From NCBI RefSeq assembly GCF_900177375.1, contig NZ_FWZU01000004.1, positions 310,001-374,000 on the forward strand: a stretch of 64,000 bases of DNA, read 5' to 3'. The translations under genes and the position numbers were made by a program. Shown here one piece after another: positions 56,406 to 63,793 of this stretch. Source of the DNA: Desulfovibrio gilichinskyi (GTDB lineage Bacteria; Desulfobacterota; Desulfovibrionia; Desulfovibrionales; Desulfovibrionaceae). The notes beneath the pieces were generated by a model. It made no database searches. It was not told where the DNA came from and saw only the letters and a program-made list of their open reading frames with translations. Position 1 is the first letter of the stretch, and each line of letters starts with the position of its first letter.

Positions 56406-57575
56406 CTACTCAAATACAAAATACTTACTAAAATCAGCATGCAGCACATTCTTAAGTTCTGCCATATTCTCCTTTTCCACTTCCGCAAACATGAAAGCGA
56501 AAACTGGGAATGTTTTGTAATCAATCTTACGTAATTCAAGTGGTTTAGTGAAATAAGAATTAAATTCTTCGTAATCAACTTTTTTGATTTTTGTACGGTC
56601 AATGCTCGAATCTACATCGGCGATAATCATTGCGTAGACTTTATCTTTGTTCTTCTCGAATATTTCATTCCAATCGGGAGTTAGGCCTTGCATGAAATAC
56701 TTATACGGGTTGATTCCATATGCAAAGTAGGCAAGGTCCGTTACGCACCATCCTGCAAAGCGCATGGGGTTGACTTCTATTACTCCTAGATTGCCTTTCT
56801 CGTCGCCTCTGATTTCTATATGGAGCGGGAAGTTTGTGAGTTCGGTTCTTTTACCTATTTCCGCAAGCAGAGCTTTAAACTTGTCATGCCATTTCTTGAT
56901 GATTTCAGTGGATGTTATGTAAACTCTGTCGCTGACATCATCGCTGGATGCGAAAAGGTGTCCGAAAATATTTAGAATTATAGGCTTTCCTTCTCCGTCG
57001 AAATAGGCGTCAACTGCGAACTCTTCACCTTCAATACATTGCTCAATGATAAACATATCCAGTTCAAGAACTTTTGCCGGATACATAGTTTTGATGTGCT
57101 CAACTTCGCCTTTGATTTTGGCTACTGCGTCATGCCAGCCCTTGATAGATTCAACCATATGCACGCCAAGGCTGAAAAAACCTACGCTAGGTTTTACCAC
57201 GCAGGGGATGGGCAAATCTGCCGGATTGACGGAATCTAGCTCTTCAAAGGCTACTGTTTTATAAAAAAAGTTTGGATATAGATCCTTTACTAAATCGCGG
57301 AAGGCGGCTTTGTCTTTAAACAGGCGGATCTTTTGCGGCAACCCGTTGGAAATCAGATGGTTGTCGATCCAGTCTATAGCATTTTCAGAATTGGAATAAA
57401 CAGGCTGGTTGGGATTCGATTTGTATGAATTAACGAAATCCTGCTCACTTACGAGCGAAAGGGGAGAACCGTGCAGTGCCGTTTTTGCGATATCGTTGCT
57501 CAGCACTTTTGCGTTAAGTTCGATCAGTGTGTTTTTTAACAGATCAGATACGTATGGCTTTTCTAAGATAAACAT
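56406..57575 (-). CDS. ATP-grasp domain protein
   Basis: A ~389-residue ATP-grasp enzyme, a family that joins a carboxylate (as acyl phosphate) to an amine or thiol. Evidence is the order DKAAFRDLVKDLYPNFFYKT, PCVVKPSVGFFSLGV (nucleotide lysine and loop), FIIEQCIEGEEFAVDAYFD and LHIEIRGDEKGNLGVIEVNPMRFAGW with the metal-binding Glu/Asn. The N-terminal ~110 residues are the substrate-side domain. The start is taken at 57575 (AGGA seven bases upstream); 57608 is in frame. The substrate is unknown; carboxylate-amine ligases for dipeptides or modified sugars are the nearest general class. Confidence 0.8.
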   Translation of the reverse strand: MFILEKPYVSDLLKNTLIELNAKVLSNDIAKTALHGSPLSLVSEQDFVNSYKSNPNQPVYSNSENAIDWIDNHLISNGLPQKIRLFKDKAAFRDLVKDLYPNFFYKTVAFEELDSVNPADLPIPCVVKPSVGFFSLGVHMVESIKGWHDAVAKIKGEVEHIKTMYPAKVLELDMFIIEQCIEGEEFAVDAYFDGEGKPIILNIFGHLFASSDDVSDRVYITSTEIIKKWHDKFKALLAEIGKRTELTNFPLHIEIRGDEKGNLGVIEVNPMRFAGWCVTDLAYFAYGINPYKYFMQGLTPDWNEIFEKNKDKVYAMIIADVDSSIDRTKIKKVDYEEFNSYFTKPLELRKIDYKTFPVFAFMFAEVEKENMAELKNVLHADFSKYFVFE

Positions 57576-57946
57576 CTGCAATCCTGTGGTTATTGAATAA
57601 TGTTTCAATATAATGATGAAACTTTTTAAGGAATGCAGATATTAATAATAAGAGAAAGGTAAATTGTACAGCGGCAGATTGCGAAAGCTTGCAGATAATA
57701 GAAGGTGGGGAATAGATTTTTTAATAAGAGAAGGGGAGGAGTGAGCCACCCCTCTCTTTTTTTGGGAAAATTTAGCCTGTCGGCACCATTTTGAGCTTTC
57801 GGCTCCACCCGAACTCTGATGCTGGACTTTTCGAACAGTCAGGGCTTCCTTAGCCAATCCATTCTCGTATACCTGACTGTTCGTGGCATAAAACTGGAAA
57901 CGGTCGATTCCGAGTTGCCCACCGGAATCGACCGGAGTTCGTTTAA
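57576..57946. other. Hairpin-rich spacer between adh and the ATP-grasp gene
   Basis: About 370 bases without a convincing gene. It contains three separate inverted repeats. One is a bulged stem ending in T7 (57726-57764, terminator-like on the plus strand, where no upstream gene exists). One is a perfect 12 bp repeat CGAACAGTCAGG with a 28-base loop (57832-57843, 57872-57883). The third is the adh terminator (57901-57934). A short minus-strand frame across it (57642-57857) has an unconvincing translation. It may encode a structured small RNA or be the remains of an inserted element. Confidence 0.5.
57901..57934 (-). terminator. Terminator of adh
   Basis: A perfect 12 bp stem CGGTCGATTCCG/CGGAATCGACCG with loop of 10 lies 13 bases after the adh stop on the minus strand, followed by TTTCCAGTTTTA. 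Confidence 0.8.
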
Positions 57947-59128
57947 TTAAAGTGCTGCTTTGTAGATTGCTGAAACTGCTGCGTCAGACATGCAACGTGG
58001 GTTAGTAAGACCACATGCATCTTTCTGTGCATTAGCTGTCATAGTCGGGATATCTTTTTCTGAAACTTTCTTACCATAACGTTCGCCAAGAGCAATCAAG
58101 CCGTCAGGAATACCTACATCGGTTGAAAGTTTGCGAATTGCTGCGAGACATTCATCTGCACCATCGCGTTTGGACATTCCTGATATATCTGCGCCGAGCC
58201 ATTCAGCCATGTCGCAGAAGCGGTCAATGTTCGCAATCAGGTTGTACTGTTCAACGTGTGGAAGAAGAATAGCGTTACATTCACCATGTGGAAGGTCATA
58301 GAATCCACCGAGCTGATGAGCCATAGCATGAACATGACCGAGGCTGGCATTATTGAAAGCCATACCACCTAGATACTGTGCGTAACACATACCTTCACGT
58401 GCTTCGATGTCTTGACCGTTAGCAACTGCGCGGCGCAGGTACTTGGAAACGAGTCTGATAGATTTTTCAGCACAAGCGTCTGTGATCGGGGTAGCGATTG
58501 TTGAAACATATGCTTCAACGGAGTGAGTAAGAGCGTCCATACCGGTAGCAGCGGTAAGGGATGGTGGCATTCCCATCATGAGTAATGGATCATCAAGAGC
58601 GATACCAGGAGTTACACGCCAGTCAACGATTGCCATCTTAACTTTACGTGATGTGTCGGTGATAATACAGAAACGGGTCATTTCTGAAGCTGTTCCTGCT
58701 GTGGTGTTAACTGCAATGTAAGGAGGCATTGGGTTTTTAGATTTGTCCACGCCTTCGTAGTCATGAATTGTTCCACCGTTGGCAATAACAAGTCCGATAC
58801 CTTTACCACAGTCATGCGAGCTACCGCCGCCAAGGGTGATAAGTGAATCACATTTGTTGTCCTGGTAAACTTTTACACCGGCAGCAACGTTTTTATCGGT
58901 TGGGTTAGGGATAGTTTCATCGTAAACAACGCAATCCATTCCTTCTGCTTTTAAGATGTCTACAATCTGTTTGGTGATACCAACGCCAGTGATTCCCTTA
59001 TCTGTTACTAGAAGTGGCTTTTTGCCGCCTAGTGAACGAATGCGAACTGGAATTTCTTTGTGTGCACCGATACCGATCAGGGTAACACTTGGAATAAAGA
59101 AACCGTGTACTTCTTCGCGTACTGCCAT
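57947..59128 (-). CDS. adh: Iron-containing alcohol dehydrogenase
   Basis: A 393-residue group III alcohol dehydrogenase oxidising ethanol and similar primary alcohols with NAD. It has a nucleotide-binding GGGSSHDCGKGIG and an iron site with Asp in DPLLMMGMPPSL...DALTHSVEAYVS and His residues in HVHAMAHQLGG and LPHGECNA. It matches in length the abundant Desulfovibrio enzyme (DVU2405-type). Start 59128 is firm: AAGGA lies eight bases upstream, and the sigma-54 promoter at 59198-59213 excludes the longer frame to 59227. Codon bias is strong, suggesting high expression. Its own terminator follows. Confidence 0.95.
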   Translation of the reverse strand: MAVREEVHGFFIPSVTLIGIGAHKEIPVRIRSLGGKKPLLVTDKGITGVGITKQIVDILKAEGMDCVVYDETIPNPTDKNVAAGVKVYQDNKCDSLITLGGGSSHDCGKGIGLVIANGGTIHDYEGVDKSKNPMPPYIAVNTTAGTASEMTRFCIITDTSRKVKMAIVDWRVTPGIALDDPLLMMGMPPSLTAATGMDALTHSVEAYVSTIATPITDACAEKSIRLVSKYLRRAVANGQDIEAREGMCYAQYLGGMAFNNASLGHVHAMAHQLGGFYDLPHGECNAILLPHVEQYNLIANIDRFCDMAEWLGADISGMSKRDGADECLAAIRKLSTDVGIPDGLIALGERYGKKVSEKDIPTMTANAQKDACGLTNPRCMSDAAVSAIYKAAL

Positions 59129-59197
59129 TTTGACCATCCTTAAGCTACAGGTTTTTGAAGGTTGTACTTGCCGAGTGCTTATTAATGGTTCTCTATA

Positions 59198-59213
59198 AGC
59201 AATAACGGGGCCA
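59198..59213 (-). promoter_or_regulatory. Sigma-54 promoter of adh
   Basis: The minus strand reads TGGCCCCGTTATTGCT, matching TGGCAC-N5-TTGCW with GG and GC exactly ten bases apart. Transcription should start near 59187, giving a leader of ~59 bases before the adh ATG. A sigma-54 response regulator gene lies directly upstream. Confidence 0.85.
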
Positions 59214-59333
59214 AACTGTAATATCATTTTATTTAAGTATGTTATGTGTTATGAAGGGTGGGCATAGTGGATCGGTTTCATCTAAAAAAAACAGTCGTTC
59301 AAGGTTTAGCATTACAAAAGAGAGAGTGATGAA

Positions 59334-59367
59334 CCTCGCAATGGTTATAAAACGTACCATTGCGAGG
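59334..59367 (-). terminator. Perfect 12 bp inverted repeat between regulator and adh
   Basis: CCTCGCAATGGT (59334-59345) pairs with ACCATTGCGAGG (59356-59367) around a 10-base loop. It lies 61 bases after the regulator stop codon and ~120-155 bases upstream of the adh sigma-54 promoter. It can be the regulator operon's terminator (though without a T-run) or the enhancer site bound by the regulator. Confidence 0.55.
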
Positions 59368-59428
59368 GCTGTGTCATTTTGTCTCAAGATATAACGGCTG
59401 TGTGTCATTCATTGTGGGGTTGGTTGGT

Positions 59429-60769
59429 CTACAGATTGTACTTATCAATTTTGCGGTAGAGGGTTTTGCGGCCGATACCAAGGGCCTGTGCAGCTTTAAG
59501 TCTGTTGCCGTTAAAAAAGTCTATAGCCTTGATAATATGTTCCCGTTCCATACGCTCAAGAGAAAGTATACCTGTTTCGCGGTCTCGCTCCGGCTGATCG
59601 GCAATTTCGCGGGGAAGACAGTTGCAGGTGATTACATAATTATCGGATAGGATGATACTGCGTTCCAGAACGTTCCTGAGTTCACGGACATTTCCAGGCC
59701 AATAGTAGGAAAGCATGCACTGCATGGCCCGCTCACTTACTGTGTACTCGCCTTGCCCTATCTGCTGTCCGAGCTTGTTAAGGAAAAAATCTACCAGAAG
59801 AGGAACATCTTCGCGGCGATCTTTCAGCGGAGGCAGGTTGATATTGAATACATTGATACGGTGAAAAAGAGCTTCATGGAATCTTCCGGCTTCAACTTCC
59901 TGTGCAAGGTTCCGGTTAGTGGCGAAGAGAAAGCGTATGTCGACTGTCCGTTCGTCTTTTTCTCCGACTCGGCGGAAAGTATGCGATTCCAGAACGCGCA
60001 GCAGTGAAGCCTGCACTTCCATCGGCAGTTCGCCTATTTCATCAAGAAAAAGAGTTCCGGTATGGGCAAAGGTCATCAGCCCGTCACTGTTGTCCATGGC
60101 TCCGGTAAATGAACCTCGTGTATGTCCGAAAAGTTCACTGCGTGCGAGTTCTTTTTGCAGAGTCGCACAGTTCTTTACGATGAGCGGTTTGCCTGCGCGC
60201 TGGCTTGCGGTGTGGATGCTGTGTGCAACCACGTCTTTACCTGCTCCGGAATCTCCGGTGATAAGGACTGGAACTCCTGTAGGGGCGACTTTACTGATTA
60301 AATGATGAATATGTTTTATTGAAGCAGCTTGTCCTATCAGCTGCGTGCTTGCGGTATCACTTTGTGAATGCTTATAGCTGCGGTTTTCACGTTGCAGACA
60401 GACTCTCTGCCATGCTCTTTCAACAACTAATTCCATTCTATCAAGCCTGAAAGGTTTGGTGATATAGTCGTAAGCACCGATGCGGATAGCCTCTACTGCG
60501 TTATCAATATTGCCGTGTCCGGTGATGAGAATAACTTCTATCTCCGGTTCAATATCTTTGAATTCTGTGAGTAGTTCAAGTCCGTCTCCATCAGGTAATC
60601 TTATATCTGAAACGACAATGTCAAAGCGGACTTTACGCATATGCTCTCTCGCCGCCTCAGCGCAATTTGCCGTATGAATAATCCGTTCGGGACTTGCAAG
60701 TTCTTTACTAAGTAATTTCAGTATGGATTCTTCATCATCTACAACAAGAATTTTATACGATTCAGGCAT
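59429..60769 (-). CDS. Sigma-54-dependent two-component response regulator
   Basis: A 446-residue NtrC-family activator. The receiver domain (1-~120) has VVDDEES and phospho-acceptor Asp55 in VSDIRLPDGDG. The AAA+ domain (~140-375) has Walker A TGDSGAGKDVV, sigma-54 loop GSFTGA (usually GAFTGA) and Walker B LFLDEIGELP. The Fis-type helix-turn-helix at the C-terminus is NRLKAAQALGIGRKTLYRKI. It is encoded after its probable cognate kinase (13 bases) and ahead of adh, whose promoter is sigma-54 dependent. In D. vulgaris the comparable regulator DVU2394 has been assigned to the adh region, which supports the link. Confidence 0.93.
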   Translation of the reverse strand: MPESYKILVVDDEESILKLLSKELASPERIIHTANCAEAAREHMRKVRFDIVVSDIRLPDGDGLELLTEFKDIEPEIEVILITGHGNIDNAVEAIRIGAYDYITKPFRLDRMELVVERAWQRVCLQRENRSYKHSQSDTASTQLIGQAASIKHIHHLISKVAPTGVPVLITGDSGAGKDVVAHSIHTASQRAGKPLIVKNCATLQKELARSELFGHTRGSFTGAMDNSDGLMTFAHTGTLFLDEIGELPMEVQASLLRVLESHTFRRVGEKDERTVDIRFLFATNRNLAQEVEAGRFHEALFHRINVFNINLPPLKDRREDVPLLVDFFLNKLGQQIGQGEYTVSERAMQCMLSYYWPGNVRELRNVLERSIILSDNYVITCNCLPREIADQPERDRETGILSLERMEREHIIKAIDFFNGNRLKAAQALGIGRKTLYRKIDKYNL

Positions 60770-60782
60770 TTCTATCCTCTCA

Positions 60783-61964
60783 CTATATTGGAAGAAGTAC
60801 TGTGAAACATGAGCCTTTGTCAGGTTCGCTGTCCACTATGATTTCACCGTTATGCTCGCGAACGATATTGTAGCAGGTAGATAAGCCAATGCCTATTCCG
60901 TGTCCTACTGATTTAGTCGTAAAAAAAGGTTCAAAAAGCATGTCTTTGTTTTCCGGTGGAATGCCGCATCCTGAGTCACTGACTTTCAGCCCCACGTGGG
61001 TGGCTGTGGAAAATGTTTGCACATGAATTTCCCCGGACTCACCTACGGCATCAATTGCGTTGGTCATTAGATTCAGTATTACTTGTTTGAGCTGAGCTTC
61101 ATCCCCATATATGTGGGATAGCGATGGAGCCAGTTCTGTTCTAAGGTTGATATCTTTTCTTTTACGGAATTGATGGTCCAGTAATCGTAGAGTATCTTTT
61201 GCAACTTGATTTAAGTCGACAGGAAGGAAATCAGCTGCAACGGGACGGCTGAATGAAAGCAGTGTTTTTACAATATCCTGACAACGCAGACATTCTTTCA
61301 GAATGGTGTTTGTGTAGTCGTTCAGATCTTCCGCCAATTCGTCCGGCACGGAGTCGTCCAGTCTGGCCAGCCTACGCTGAATTCCTTCTGCAAATCCGGC
61401 TACGGCTGCCATAGGGTTGTTAATTTCATGGGCGACGCCGGCGGCAAGAACTCCGATGGTAGCCATCTTTTCTGCCTGATAGAACTTTGCCTGATATTCT
61501 TTTTCTAAAGTAACATCCCGCTTGAATATGAGGATACGGTTTTCAGTAAGATCAGGATTTTTCAGTGGTGAGGCAACCATATCAAATTGCATATTCTTGC
61601 CGTCAACACGGAATATAGCCGTTTCTTTACAGACGGAATTGGTGGAAAGCGCGCGGAAAGCAGGGCATTCAGAGCAAGGTTTATTGTCATGTCTGAACAG
61701 GCTGTAGCATTTTCTGCCTATAGGATTAACACCGGGGAAAAGCTGTTCAAAAACATGATTGACCGAAATTATTTCAAGATTTTCAGAAAGAACCATCATT
61801 ACATCGGTTATGCCGTCAAGGATGGCAGCAATTTCGCGTCTTTGGTCCTCTGATTGAAGGTTCAGCTCAGTCAATTCCTGAATATTTTTTTGCAATTCTT
61901 GAAAGAAATTAAGTTTATTATGCTCAATGCCTATAAGGTCAAGAAGTGAAGTCTTGCTGGTCAT
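60783..61964 (-). CDS. PAS sensor histidine kinase, partner of the sigma-54 regulator
   Basis: A ~393-residue soluble kinase. A short coiled coil (~15-45) is followed by a PAS domain (~45-160) with an unusual cysteine set, CYSLFRHDNKPCSECPAF, and a further NSVCKE, which may bind metal or sense redox state. HisKA with AAGVAHEINNPMAAVAGFAEG and HATPase with LNLMTNAIDAVGE, VSDSGCGIP and GIGIGLSTCYNIV complete it. The ATG at 61964 overlaps the stop of the upstream dehydrogenase gene (TAATG) and has GAGG seven bases ahead, so translation is coupled. No membrane span. Confidence 0.92.
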   Translation of the reverse strand: MTSKTSLLDLIGIEHNKLNFFQELQKNIQELTELNLQSEDQRREIAAILDGITDVMMVLSENLEIISVNHVFEQLFPGVNPIGRKCYSLFRHDNKPCSECPAFRALSTNSVCKETAIFRVDGKNMQFDMVASPLKNPDLTENRILIFKRDVTLEKEYQAKFYQAEKMATIGVLAAGVAHEINNPMAAVAGFAEGIQRRLARLDDSVPDELAEDLNDYTNTILKECLRCQDIVKTLLSFSRPVAADFLPVDLNQVAKDTLRLLDHQFRKRKDINLRTELAPSLSHIYGDEAQLKQVILNLMTNAIDAVGESGEIHVQTFSTATHVGLKVSDSGCGIPPENKDMLFEPFFTTKSVGHGIGIGLSTCYNIVREHNGEIIVDSEPDKGSCFTVLLPI

Positions 61965-63124
61965 TACCATGCCTCGTTACAGATATTAAGAAGATCGCGC
62001 CAGTCGGCCTCTCTGGGATTTGGAACAGCGCAGGCATCCTGAACAGCCAGATGACATATTTCTTCCAGATGATTGTTATCAGGAAGGATATCACGCAGCC
62101 TCATTGGAATACCCAGATCTTCAAACATATGCTGCAATGTGTTGCAAACCTGTTCGGCCTGTATCTCTGTCGAGCAGATGTGTGCACCGTTAATAGTACG
62201 GGCTATAATTGCCATTTTGGTTTTACAGCTTGGGATGTTGAAGCGCATGACCGCCGGAAGTAATATAGGAAGAGTCATGCCGTGCATTACATCATAGCGA
62301 CCGCCGAGCGAATGAGCCACCGCATGTCCTATACCTAGTCCTGCATTGCTGAAAGACATCCCTGCCGCGGTACTTGCAATTGATAGATTCGTTAACGCTT
62401 CTGGATCTTTCGTATCTGCCGCAGGTTTGAGGTTTTCAGTAATCAGCTTGATAGCGTTTAAAGCTTGCGATTCCGTGAAAGGAGAAGCGAGCCTCGAAAC
62501 ATAGGACTCAATGGCGTGAGTCAGTGCGTCAACAGCTGAGGACAGGATTAATTTACGGGATTTAGTAATGAGTAGGTCTGGATCTATGATTGAAATATTG
62601 GGAACCAGTGAACGGCTGATAATGGACATCTTTACTTGCCGTTTTGTGTCTGTGATAATTGCGTACTGTGATACATCTGATCCGCCGCCGGCAGTGGTAG
62701 GGATAAAAATCATGGGCGGCAGGGGGTGGCTTATTCTGTTTGCTCCCTCGTAGTCGCTGATTTGTCCGCCGTTGCTGACTATTGTTGCGATTCCTTTTGC
62801 TGTGTCAATGGGACTTCCGCCGCCCAGTCCGATTATGACATCGGCCTTGTGCTCAATATACAACTTTGCCCCTTCATGAATTTGGGTGTCACGAGGGTTT
62901 GAAGTCACATCATTAAAATATGCACAGTCCATCTTTGAATTTTCAAGAATCTTTAGAACTTGTTTCACCCATCCGGAGTCTTCAAGTCCTTTATCGCTGA
63001 CCAGTAAAACCCTTTTGGCCCCAAGTCGCTGTGCACATGAAGCAAGGTACTTGATACTGCCGTTACCGAAGATTATTTCCGGTATGGCAAACTTAGTTAT
63101 CTGCACAAAGACTCCTTGTTTCAT
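61964..63124 (-). CDS. Iron-containing alcohol dehydrogenase in the regulatory operon (ErcA-like)
   Basis: A 386-residue group III alcohol dehydrogenase paralogue of the 57947 gene. GGGSPIDTAKGIATIV binds nucleotide. The iron ligands lie in the AVDALTHAIESYVS region, GHAVAHSLGGRYDVMHG and beyond. It is translationally coupled to the kinase and upstream of the sigma-54 regulator, so all three likely form one operon. In Pseudomonas a similar dehydrogenase, ErcA, acts in a two-component cascade controlling ethanol oxidation. A sensing role here is an inference; it may also simply be a catabolic enzyme. Confidence 0.9.
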   Translation of the reverse strand: MKQGVFVQITKFAIPEIIFGNGSIKYLASCAQRLGAKRVLLVSDKGLEDSGWVKQVLKILENSKMDCAYFNDVTSNPRDTQIHEGAKLYIEHKADVIIGLGGGSPIDTAKGIATIVSNGGQISDYEGANRISHPLPPMIFIPTTAGGGSDVSQYAIITDTKRQVKMSIISRSLVPNISIIDPDLLITKSRKLILSSAVDALTHAIESYVSRLASPFTESQALNAIKLITENLKPAADTKDPEALTNLSIASTAAGMSFSNAGLGIGHAVAHSLGGRYDVMHGMTLPILLPAVMRFNIPSCKTKMAIIARTINGAHICSTEIQAEQVCNTLQHMFEDLGIPMRLRDILPDNNHLEEICHLAVQDACAVPNPREADWRDLLNICNEAW

Positions 63125-63208
63125 AAGGTATATATATTATTATAAAAATTCTATTTATCATTTTATTCTCCGCGCTGAAAGCTGTAAAGTCAATAGGCCC
63201 TTTAGGCT

Positions 63209-63793
63209 TTAGCTTGGAAGTATATTGAAGTTTTCAAGAATTAACCCTGAAGATTTTTTTTTCAAAACAGTAGTACAGCAGTGTAGAGGAGACAGTTTAA
63301 ATATATTGGATAAAGGAAATTGGAGAGTAATATGAAGGATGATGCGGATAACTCCGGCATGAGTAACAATGACTACAGGTTTTTTATGTGCAAGGATTTT
63401 ATCCAGCCCGGTTTGAACCCTTTGCTTCAAGTCTGCAAAGCTTTCTCCCTTGGGAGGACGATAGTTTGCGAAATCCACTCCTCGCTTGATGTATTCATTT
63501 GGAAATTGTTCTTTTATTTGCTTGAAACTAAGTCCGTCCCAGTCTCCTAAGTTAATCTCAGCAAATTCCGGGCAGGATACAGCTGTAAGATTGCACTTTG
63601 TTTCAATTTCCGCAGCTGTTTCGCGTGTTCGTAAAAGAGGGCTTGTGTAGAGATGATCAAACGGTACATGACATAGTGATTTAGCTAGAATCTTAGCCTG
63701 TTTCAGTCCTGTATATGAAAGCGGAAGATCCGTTTGTCCTATGGCACATCCTTCAGCTTTTTCAGCCTCACCATGACGGATGAGTATAATCAT
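63209..63793 (-). CDS. Histidine phosphatase superfamily protein (phosphoglycerate mutase/CobC-like)
   Basis: A 194-residue enzyme with the catalytic LIRHGEAE at the N-terminus, GQTDLPLSYTGLKQA, YTSPLLRTRETA and the second His in VTHAGVIRIIL. Size and motifs fit alpha-ribazole-5'-phosphate phosphatase (CobC) or a phosphoglycerate-mutase-like phosphatase. Cobalamin genes occur in this window but some 17 kb away, so the CobC assignment is tentative. The upstream neighbour is a probable glycosyltransferase gene. Confidence 0.82.
   Translation of the reverse strand: MIILIRHGEAEKAEGCAIGQTDLPLSYTGLKQAKILAKSLCHVPFDHLYTSPLLRTRETAAEIETKCNLTAVSCPEFAEINLGDWDGLSFKQIKEQFPNEYIKRGVDFANYRPPKGESFADLKQRVQTGLDKILAHKKPVVIVTHAGVIRIILHITLQFPLSNIFKLSPLHCCTTVLKKKSSGLILENFNILPS

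Follow-up and report, generated by a model that had tools for sequence, protein, structure and literature searches.

Introduction

The closest described counterparts of the locus analysed here are the DVU2394 regulon of Desulfovibrio vulgaris, in which we take DVU2395 and DVU2396 to be the kinase and the iron-containing alcohol dehydrogenase (ADH), and the ped/exa YiaY/ErcA-PP_2683/ErcS module of Pseudomonas. DVU2394 was mapped to the adh operon DVU2405-2397 (PMC3333781; listed in PMC4641369) and is listed with the GSFTGA variant (PMC4641369). Its published motif is a direct repeat that, by the account given in PMC3333781, was found besides the type strain only in D. vulgaris Miyazaki. In laboratory evolution of D. 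vulgaris, DVU2394 and DVU2395 rank as high-parallelism genes of the syntrophy lines (PMC8319347), and DVU2394 and DVU2396 count as convergent genes of the temperature lines (PMC7439460). The parallel mutation of DVU2394 during syntrophy evolution lends such a regulator practical relevance (PMC8319347). In Pseudomonas, induction of alcohol oxidation requires the YiaY/ErcA-kinase pair, with enzyme activity or binding proposed as the signal, and mutation of YiaY H281 (Pseudomonas numbering) impairs induction (PMC12997753). Sigma-54 control of adh genes with an activator, as proposed below, is likewise described for AdhR-SigL of Clostridium beijerinckii (PMC7017808). A point that weighs against our proposal comes from Solidesulfovibrio fructosivorans, where adh does not respond in the same way as Aor, a different (ferredoxin) enzyme (PMC10084766).

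The locus lies in a stretch of 64,000 nucleotides from Desulfovibrio gilichinskyi (hereafter, the window). Like the DVU2394 regulon, it combines a sigma-54 response regulator carrying GSFTGA with a presumed alcohol dehydrogenase target (PMC3333781, PMC4641369). The presence of a cassette with a kinase and a second iron ADH, together with an adh target, would also agree with the layout of that regulon if the g38 genomes, in which adh lies ~12 kb before the same cassette, are the D. vulgaris group, as we presume. Unlike in the DVU2394 regulon, the window adh adjoins the regulator, and the window element is a palindrome plus a half-site whereas the DVU2394 motif is called a direct repeat (PMC3333781). 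A further difference from the regulon as published is that the predicted regulon here also takes in an aldehyde oxidoreductase operon and a gene-less unit; the term “aldehyde” and the genes DVU1558/1559 are absent from the main texts of both PMC4641369 and PMC3333781, as is DVU1553 from that of the former. With the Pseudomonas module the locus shares an iron ADH encoded together with a histidine kinase, but the Pseudomonas system uses a hybrid kinase and the LuxR-type AgmR/ErbR where the window has a PAS kinase and an NtrC-type sigma-54 activator. Our literature search, which covered main-text material of largely open-access papers, returned no report of the palindromic pair, the aldehyde oxidoreductase target or the gene-less unit.

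Here, we propose, and consider very likely, that an ErcA-like iron ADH, a PAS histidine kinase and an NtrC-type regulator (59429-63124) act as one alcohol/aldehyde-responsive cassette that drives adh through a bipartite element (59370-59407) and sigma-54. The proposal builds on the anatomy of the locus, its conservation, and the recurrence of element and promoter at three loci, all of which we observe; from these we infer the signal, phosphorylation, binding, transcript starts, pathway direction and the role of a nearby hairpin. The kinase would be stimulated, probably by turnover or ligand binding of the ErcA-like protein, and the phosphorylated regulator would bind the bipartite element. From 156 bp upstream the bound regulator would then reach sigma-54 RNA polymerase at the promoter, with adh being transcribed from near 59187. 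With the same element at nearly the same distance, the regulator would also turn on a molybdenum aldehyde oxidoreductase operon, so that alcohol could be taken to aldehyde by adh and on to acid by the aldehyde oxidoreductase. A third, gene-less unit would probably be driven by the element as well, and a 12-bp repeat beside the element would form the 3'-end hairpin of the cassette's own mRNA.

Results and discussion

The adh gene and its sigma-54 promoter

On the minus strand, the genes for the ErcA-like iron ADH, the PAS histidine kinase and the NtrC-type response regulator are followed by an intergenic stretch and then by adh (Table 1). The top NCBIfam model for the adh product is L-threonine dehydrogenase (PRK09860), at 502.7 bits and so under the cut-off of 581. 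That adh starts at 59128, as an earlier reading made from the sequence alone had claimed (hereafter, the sequence-only reading), is borne out by the alignment of residue 1 in most relatives and by the position of the sigma-54 promoter, which is downstream of the start (59227) of a longer, 426-aa reading; on that account the 426-aa reading would not be whole on the transcript.

Table 1. Features of the locus and of the related loci discussed in the text. Positions are those of the window unless a locus (L) is named.
Feature	Position	Strand	Basis or remark
adh, iron-containing alcohol dehydrogenase (YiaY-like), presumed target gene	57947-59128	-	Pfam Fe-ADH 155 bits, ADH_Fe_C 225 bits
Presumed ribosome-binding site of adh, AAGGATGG	59134-59141	-	Read from the sequence; invariant in the alignment with five genus mates
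Sigma-54 promoter, TTGGCCCCGTTATTGCT	59198-59214	-	Conserved pattern; predicted transcript start ~59187
12-bp perfect inverted repeat, interpreted as most likely a 3'-end RNA hairpin of the regulator operon	59334-59367	-	Pairing changes in four genomes; -20.3 kcal/mol predicted
Proximal full site of the candidate enhancer, TGAGACA-AAA-TGACACA	59370-59386	-	12/14 to the palindromic consensus TGTGTCA-N3-TGACACA of other genera
Distal half-site TGACACA of the candidate enhancer, 31 bp from the proximal one	59401-59407	-	Invariant in 15 genus loci; not found in G093
Response regulator (receiver, AAA+ sigma-54 activator with GSFTGA, Fis-type HTH), presumed activator	59429-60769	-	Pfam domains
PAS histidine kinase, presumed partner of the regulator	60783-61970	-	Directly upstream of the regulator in 73/73 loci examined
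ErcA-like iron ADH, presumed sensory partner of the kinase	61964-63124	-	7-nt overlap with the kinase gene
Operon of molybdenum aldehyde oxidoreductase and maturation genes, preceded by the same element	L235 973-12728		
Gene-less unit (element, promoter, adh-like leader, terminator)	L367 673-1290; L364, L361 (-), L362 (-), L363		
adh leader of G031 (another genus), resembling the gene-less leader	L134 3640-3736	-	

The near-consensus sigma-54 promoter that had been claimed upstream of adh was confirmed; the last base of its TTGC is 59199, and from there to the A of the adh ATG is 71 positions. The predicted transcript start (Table 1) follows from the GC element at 59200-59199. By itself, the pattern TGGC-N7-TTGC is not rare, as it occurs 4 times in the window against 2.75 expected, and 26 of 100 shuffles also reach 4. 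What makes the promoter convincing is the conservation of its position across loci, the pattern count alone being at chance level. All 15 genus loci, the window among them, have a looser pattern, TGG[CA]-N7-[TA]TGC, at -130 to -50 of adh, as do 40 of the 52 other adh upstream regions, versus 0.37 in shuffles; the strict pattern is absent from 8 of 46 adh upstream regions. The site thus has the features by which we recognise a sigma-54 promoter, namely GG and GC 10 nt apart and a fixed place before adh. On the other side of the gene, a search of 57500-63500 against Rfam at E<=1 gave a single match, a weak PrrB/RsmZ covariance hit after adh (57726-57858, minus strand; 18.1 bits versus a gathering score of 44, E 0.64) that is probably due to chance.

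A conserved bipartite element upstream of adh

The sequence-only reading had suggested the 12-bp inverted repeat as a possible activator site and had called for a comparison of that repeat with the upstream regions of related adh genes. Once made, the comparison showed that the repeat is not general and that the adjacent bipartite element is conserved instead. On the minus strand, this element reads TGACACA-N24-TGACACA and begins three bases beyond the repeat. Five close genus mates served for comparison of the regulator-adh stretch, and 15 genus loci for that of the adh upstream regions (the window and L113-L126; the adh upstream region of G199 falls outside this count). With its second box written as YGACACA, the element is present in 15/15 of these and in 15 of the 16 genus adh upstream regions examined; G093, which is placed in the same genus, has no element at adh and a best site of 9/14. 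Without gaps, the first eight bases of the element have a mean pairwise identity of 1.00 and the second site one of 0.80, while the sequence between and after them is at 0.38-0.46. The end of the element lies 156-158 bp from the promoter in all 15 genus loci, and when the aldehyde oxidoreductase promoters of the genus are included the distance is 152-158 bp in 30 promoters. The adh spacer has diverged, being only 38-44% identical without gaps, yet its length is nearly constant. Sigma-54 enhancers are commonly thought to be tolerant of distance.

In other genera, each box is often a palindrome, TGTGTCA-N3-TGACACA, and commonly occurs twice, at a spacing of 30-33 bp. Among 52 further adh upstream regions, 37 have a site that matches at 11 or more of the 14 positions (100 shuffles of the set give a mean of 0.87 and a maximum of 4), and 31 have a pair of sites at that spacing (shuffle mean 0.15, maximum 1). 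The 52 regions (51 from other genera or named relatives, plus G093) are related sequences, so these counts are not independent; L133 and L137, with adh upstream regions of <400 bases, were left out of the site and promoter counts. Sites of 10-13 matches remain where adh is divergent (L011, L013) or lies away from the regulator (L176-L183, L189). No strong site was found in 15 of the 52 regions. In group g25, only 1 of 8 adh upstream regions reaches 11/14 (two regions per genome in four genomes, the exception being the first copy of the fourth genome), and two of the three D. vulgaris-like g38 genomes have 10/14 at best and no strong site.

Within the 3.96-Mb genome, the exact bipartite pattern has two copies, one upstream of adh and the other 12.7 kb past the end of the window. 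Beyond these, matches with up to 2 or 3 mismatches are no commoner than in the reversed control, and near the start of the ErcA-like gene no candidate autoregulatory site scores above 9/14. On this comparative sequence evidence, the DNA recognised by the regulator is probably the bipartite element beside the repeat and not the repeat itself. A site model for the adh regulator can hence be given across many genera, as compared with a published motif in two strains.

Two minor observations concern related arrangements. In group g36 (G036), the regulator is followed by two tandem adh genes (L127 5690-8446, in the orientation of the regulator), and each of these has a sigma-54-type promoter as well as sites of 10-12/14 matches. 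Other sites that resemble the enhancer and end in TTCAAAACGACACA are found at G172:C1:18619-18656 and G157:C1:246750-246787.

The 12-bp inverted repeat

As a sequence feature the repeat is just as it had been described, perfect over 12 bp (59334-59345 and 59356-59367, with a loop of 10) and 121-154 nt upstream of the promoter, where ~120-155 had been claimed. It is very improbable, on the other hand, that it is the regulator's binding site. In favour of this reading, the repeat is a perfect dyad at the usual enhancer distance and its symmetry is retained with sequence change in three relatives. Against it, the repeat is kept at its place in only 4 of the 15 genus loci (the window, G149, G172 and G157), and the other 11, which have no repeat of at least 9 bp there, all keep the neighbouring element; the letters of the repeat differ between species whose regulators are 93-98% identical; and since the repeat has one place only in the genome, it is missing at the second target. 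A plausible but probably wrong enhancer is in this way replaced by a conserved candidate.

What, then, might the repeat be? Among the four genomes that carry it, 8 of the 12 pairs are formed in all, pairs 1, 6, 7 and 9 have double changes, and the stem is broken at pair 1 in two of the four and at pairs 10-12 in G172 and G157. Since G172 and G157 are nearly identical here, few of these changes are independent. The keeping of the pairing despite changed letters points to selection on the stem and not on a particular sequence. In the same four genomes, just 24-26 bases lie between the end of the regulator alignment and the enhancer (in the window, the enhancer comes 21 bp after the stop codon). 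G074 and G007, which are without the repeat, have a gap of ~99 bases containing a strong hairpin and then a T-rich stretch. Because the pairing is kept and a hairpin stands in the same gap in G074 and G007, as is expected if both hairpins end the same regulator mRNA, we think it most likely that the repeat forms a 3'-terminal hairpin of that mRNA, though no T-run follows at once.

The “terminator-like hairpin” of the sequence-only reading therefore stands in part: the compensating changes and the substitute hairpin in two relatives speak for a hairpin, whereas the lack of an immediate T-run and a negative terminator scan speak against a terminator of the usual kind. That scan result, together with the fact that symmetric changes preserve a DNA dyad as well as an RNA stem, would also suit a DNA site for another protein, such as a repressor or an architectural protein. 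We hold this to be unlikely given that the repeat is kept where the regulator alignment ends so close to the enhancer and that the two relatives without it have a hairpin in their longer gap. Two further candidates were rejected. As a canonical intrinsic terminator, the repeat has the GC-rich stem but not the immediate T-run, and the terminator scan finds none; as a dispersed element, it has a single place in the 3.96-Mb genome, even when as many as 3 mismatches are tolerated.

The regulator, the kinase and the ErcA-like protein

The regulator has the domains of an NtrC-type protein (Response_reg 94 bits, Sigma54_activat 205 bits, HTH_8 49.9 bits), including the GxFTGA loop, and a close homolog at E<=1e-130 is encoded in 74 of 199 family genomes. 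The order ErcA-like gene, kinase, regulator holds in 70 of 73 loci, among them Syntrophobacteraceae, Desulfobacteraceae and Desulfosoma records outside the family; the 73 comprise the best 13 of 80 loci and 60 stretches around regulator matches, with some genomes represented twice. The three exceptions, without an ErcA-like gene, are L012, at a contig edge, and L167 and L168, which hold second regulator copies. An enzyme-kinase pair like that of Pseudomonas would thus be a usual part of a sigma-54 system in sulfate reducers.

For the ErcA-like protein, the top NCBIfam model is ErcA (NF041833), at 412.8 bits and ahead by >100 bits but below the cut-off of 550; the target adh scores 412.9 bits on the same model. 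By the NCBI cut-off the window protein is outside ErcA, and it possibly works like ErcA. Columns D199, H203, H267 and H281, which we take from knowledge of the family to be the metal ligands, are invariant in 69 aligned ErcA-like proteins, and their counterparts are invariant in 45 adh proteins. With the presumed metal-ligand columns invariant, the ErcA-like protein is probably a working enzyme or a ligand binder.

The claim of the sequence-only reading that adh is controlled by the neighbouring NtrC-type regulator is well supported, and such control is published for D. vulgaris DVU2394. In a genome with many NtrC-type proteins (the regulator matches 25 other places in its own genome at E<=1.2e-45), a different enhancer-binding protein might use the element in place of the neighbouring regulator, and the published direct-repeat description of the DVU2394 motif does not obviously match a palindrome. 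Yet element and regulator gene adjoin in many genera, and in D. vulgaris the regulator itself, DVU2394, is reported to target the adh operon (PMC3333781); we therefore think it improbable that another activator is at work, and retain the neighbouring regulator as the presumed activator.

A probable second target: the molybdenum aldehyde oxidoreductase operon

The second perfect copy of the element lies 154 bp before a sigma-54-like promoter, TGGACCTCTTCTTGCT. Behind this promoter is an operon for a MoeA-like protein, a molybdopterin aldehyde oxidoreductase (NF045668, 1657 bits, above the curated cut-off of 1100), a dicluster oxidoreductase, and DVU_1553/DVU_1556-type, TrsS and XdhC-type maturation proteins. 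In the genus, the element precedes the aldehyde oxidoreductase in 15 of 17 genomes (14 without a mismatch and one with one), at a promoter distance of 152-157 bp. It is missing at the aldehyde oxidoreductase in G093 and G199 (match begins at residue 184), and it is absent from three paralogous oxidoreductase copies (of four weaker copies in G117 and G093). Outside the genus, where the best match of 20 of 21 genomes was used (G121 being left out), the paired site occurs in only 2 of 20 aldehyde oxidoreductase upstream regions, so the link to the aldehyde oxidoreductase is mostly genus-specific. Alcohol dehydrogenase and aldehyde oxidoreductase are in this manner tied into one predicted regulon in the genus; together the two enzymes make up an alcohol-to-acid route, which would presumably run in that direction. 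ORFs at L235 13524-14926 resemble, by eye, a molybdate-type ABC transporter.

A probable third target: a putative transcription unit with no recognisable gene

One site with 2 mismatches is an inverted bipartite element before a sigma-54-like promoter, TTGGTTCGTATCTTGCT. The ~370 nt that follow TTGGTTCGTATCTTGCT contain no recognisable gene and lead to an intrinsic-type terminator, and an aldehyde dehydrogenase gene starts ~590 nt after this promoter. The unit is found in five species (Table 1), with the element (best site 11-12/14) starting 199-206 nt before the promoter and the terminator stem starting 339-377 nt after the promoter start. No ORF of at least 20 codons is common to the five units, and over the stretch read G000 and G149 lack any. 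The leader is matched by the 5' leader of the adh that adjoins the regulator in G031, and the match extends to the GGAGTGTGT preceding the ATG of that gene. A search for ADH coding remnants behind the leader found none (best E 1.7), and Rfam returned none for the five loci at gathering scores. These observations expose a conserved, putative sigma-54-type transcription unit without a recognisable gene, which may be an adh upstream region that has lost its gene and persists as a candidate non-coding transcript.

In light of this resemblance to an adh upstream region, does the unit still have a function? A decaying remnant without function is a serious possibility, if short of an even chance. Such a remnant would be consistent with a leader that is similar to that of adh in another genus and is followed by no shared ORF, with folds of the leader that are no more stable than those of shuffles (z-scores -1.24 to 1.68), and with the finding of the unit by DNA similarity in only 5 of 17 genus genomes, the rest of which may be too diverged or without the unit. 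What argues against mere decay is that five species have all retained element, promoter, leader and terminator, similarly spaced, in otherwise diverged sequence: identity is 64% over the 125 nt of promoter and leader, as against 43% for the next 200 nt and 48% for the 150 nt before the promoter. We tentatively suggest, as a rather speculative extension of the model, that the regulator also drives a small RNA derived from an adh whose coding part was lost, with enhancer, promoter, leader (including a GGAGTGT site) and terminator kept in at least five species as a transcript of ~350-390 nt. Such an RNA might act on adh/aor expression or on a global RNA-binding protein, with the ErcA-like enzyme as the sensor.

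In four of the five genomes, the divergent ORF upstream of the gene-less unit looks, by eye, like the same MFS-type transporter.
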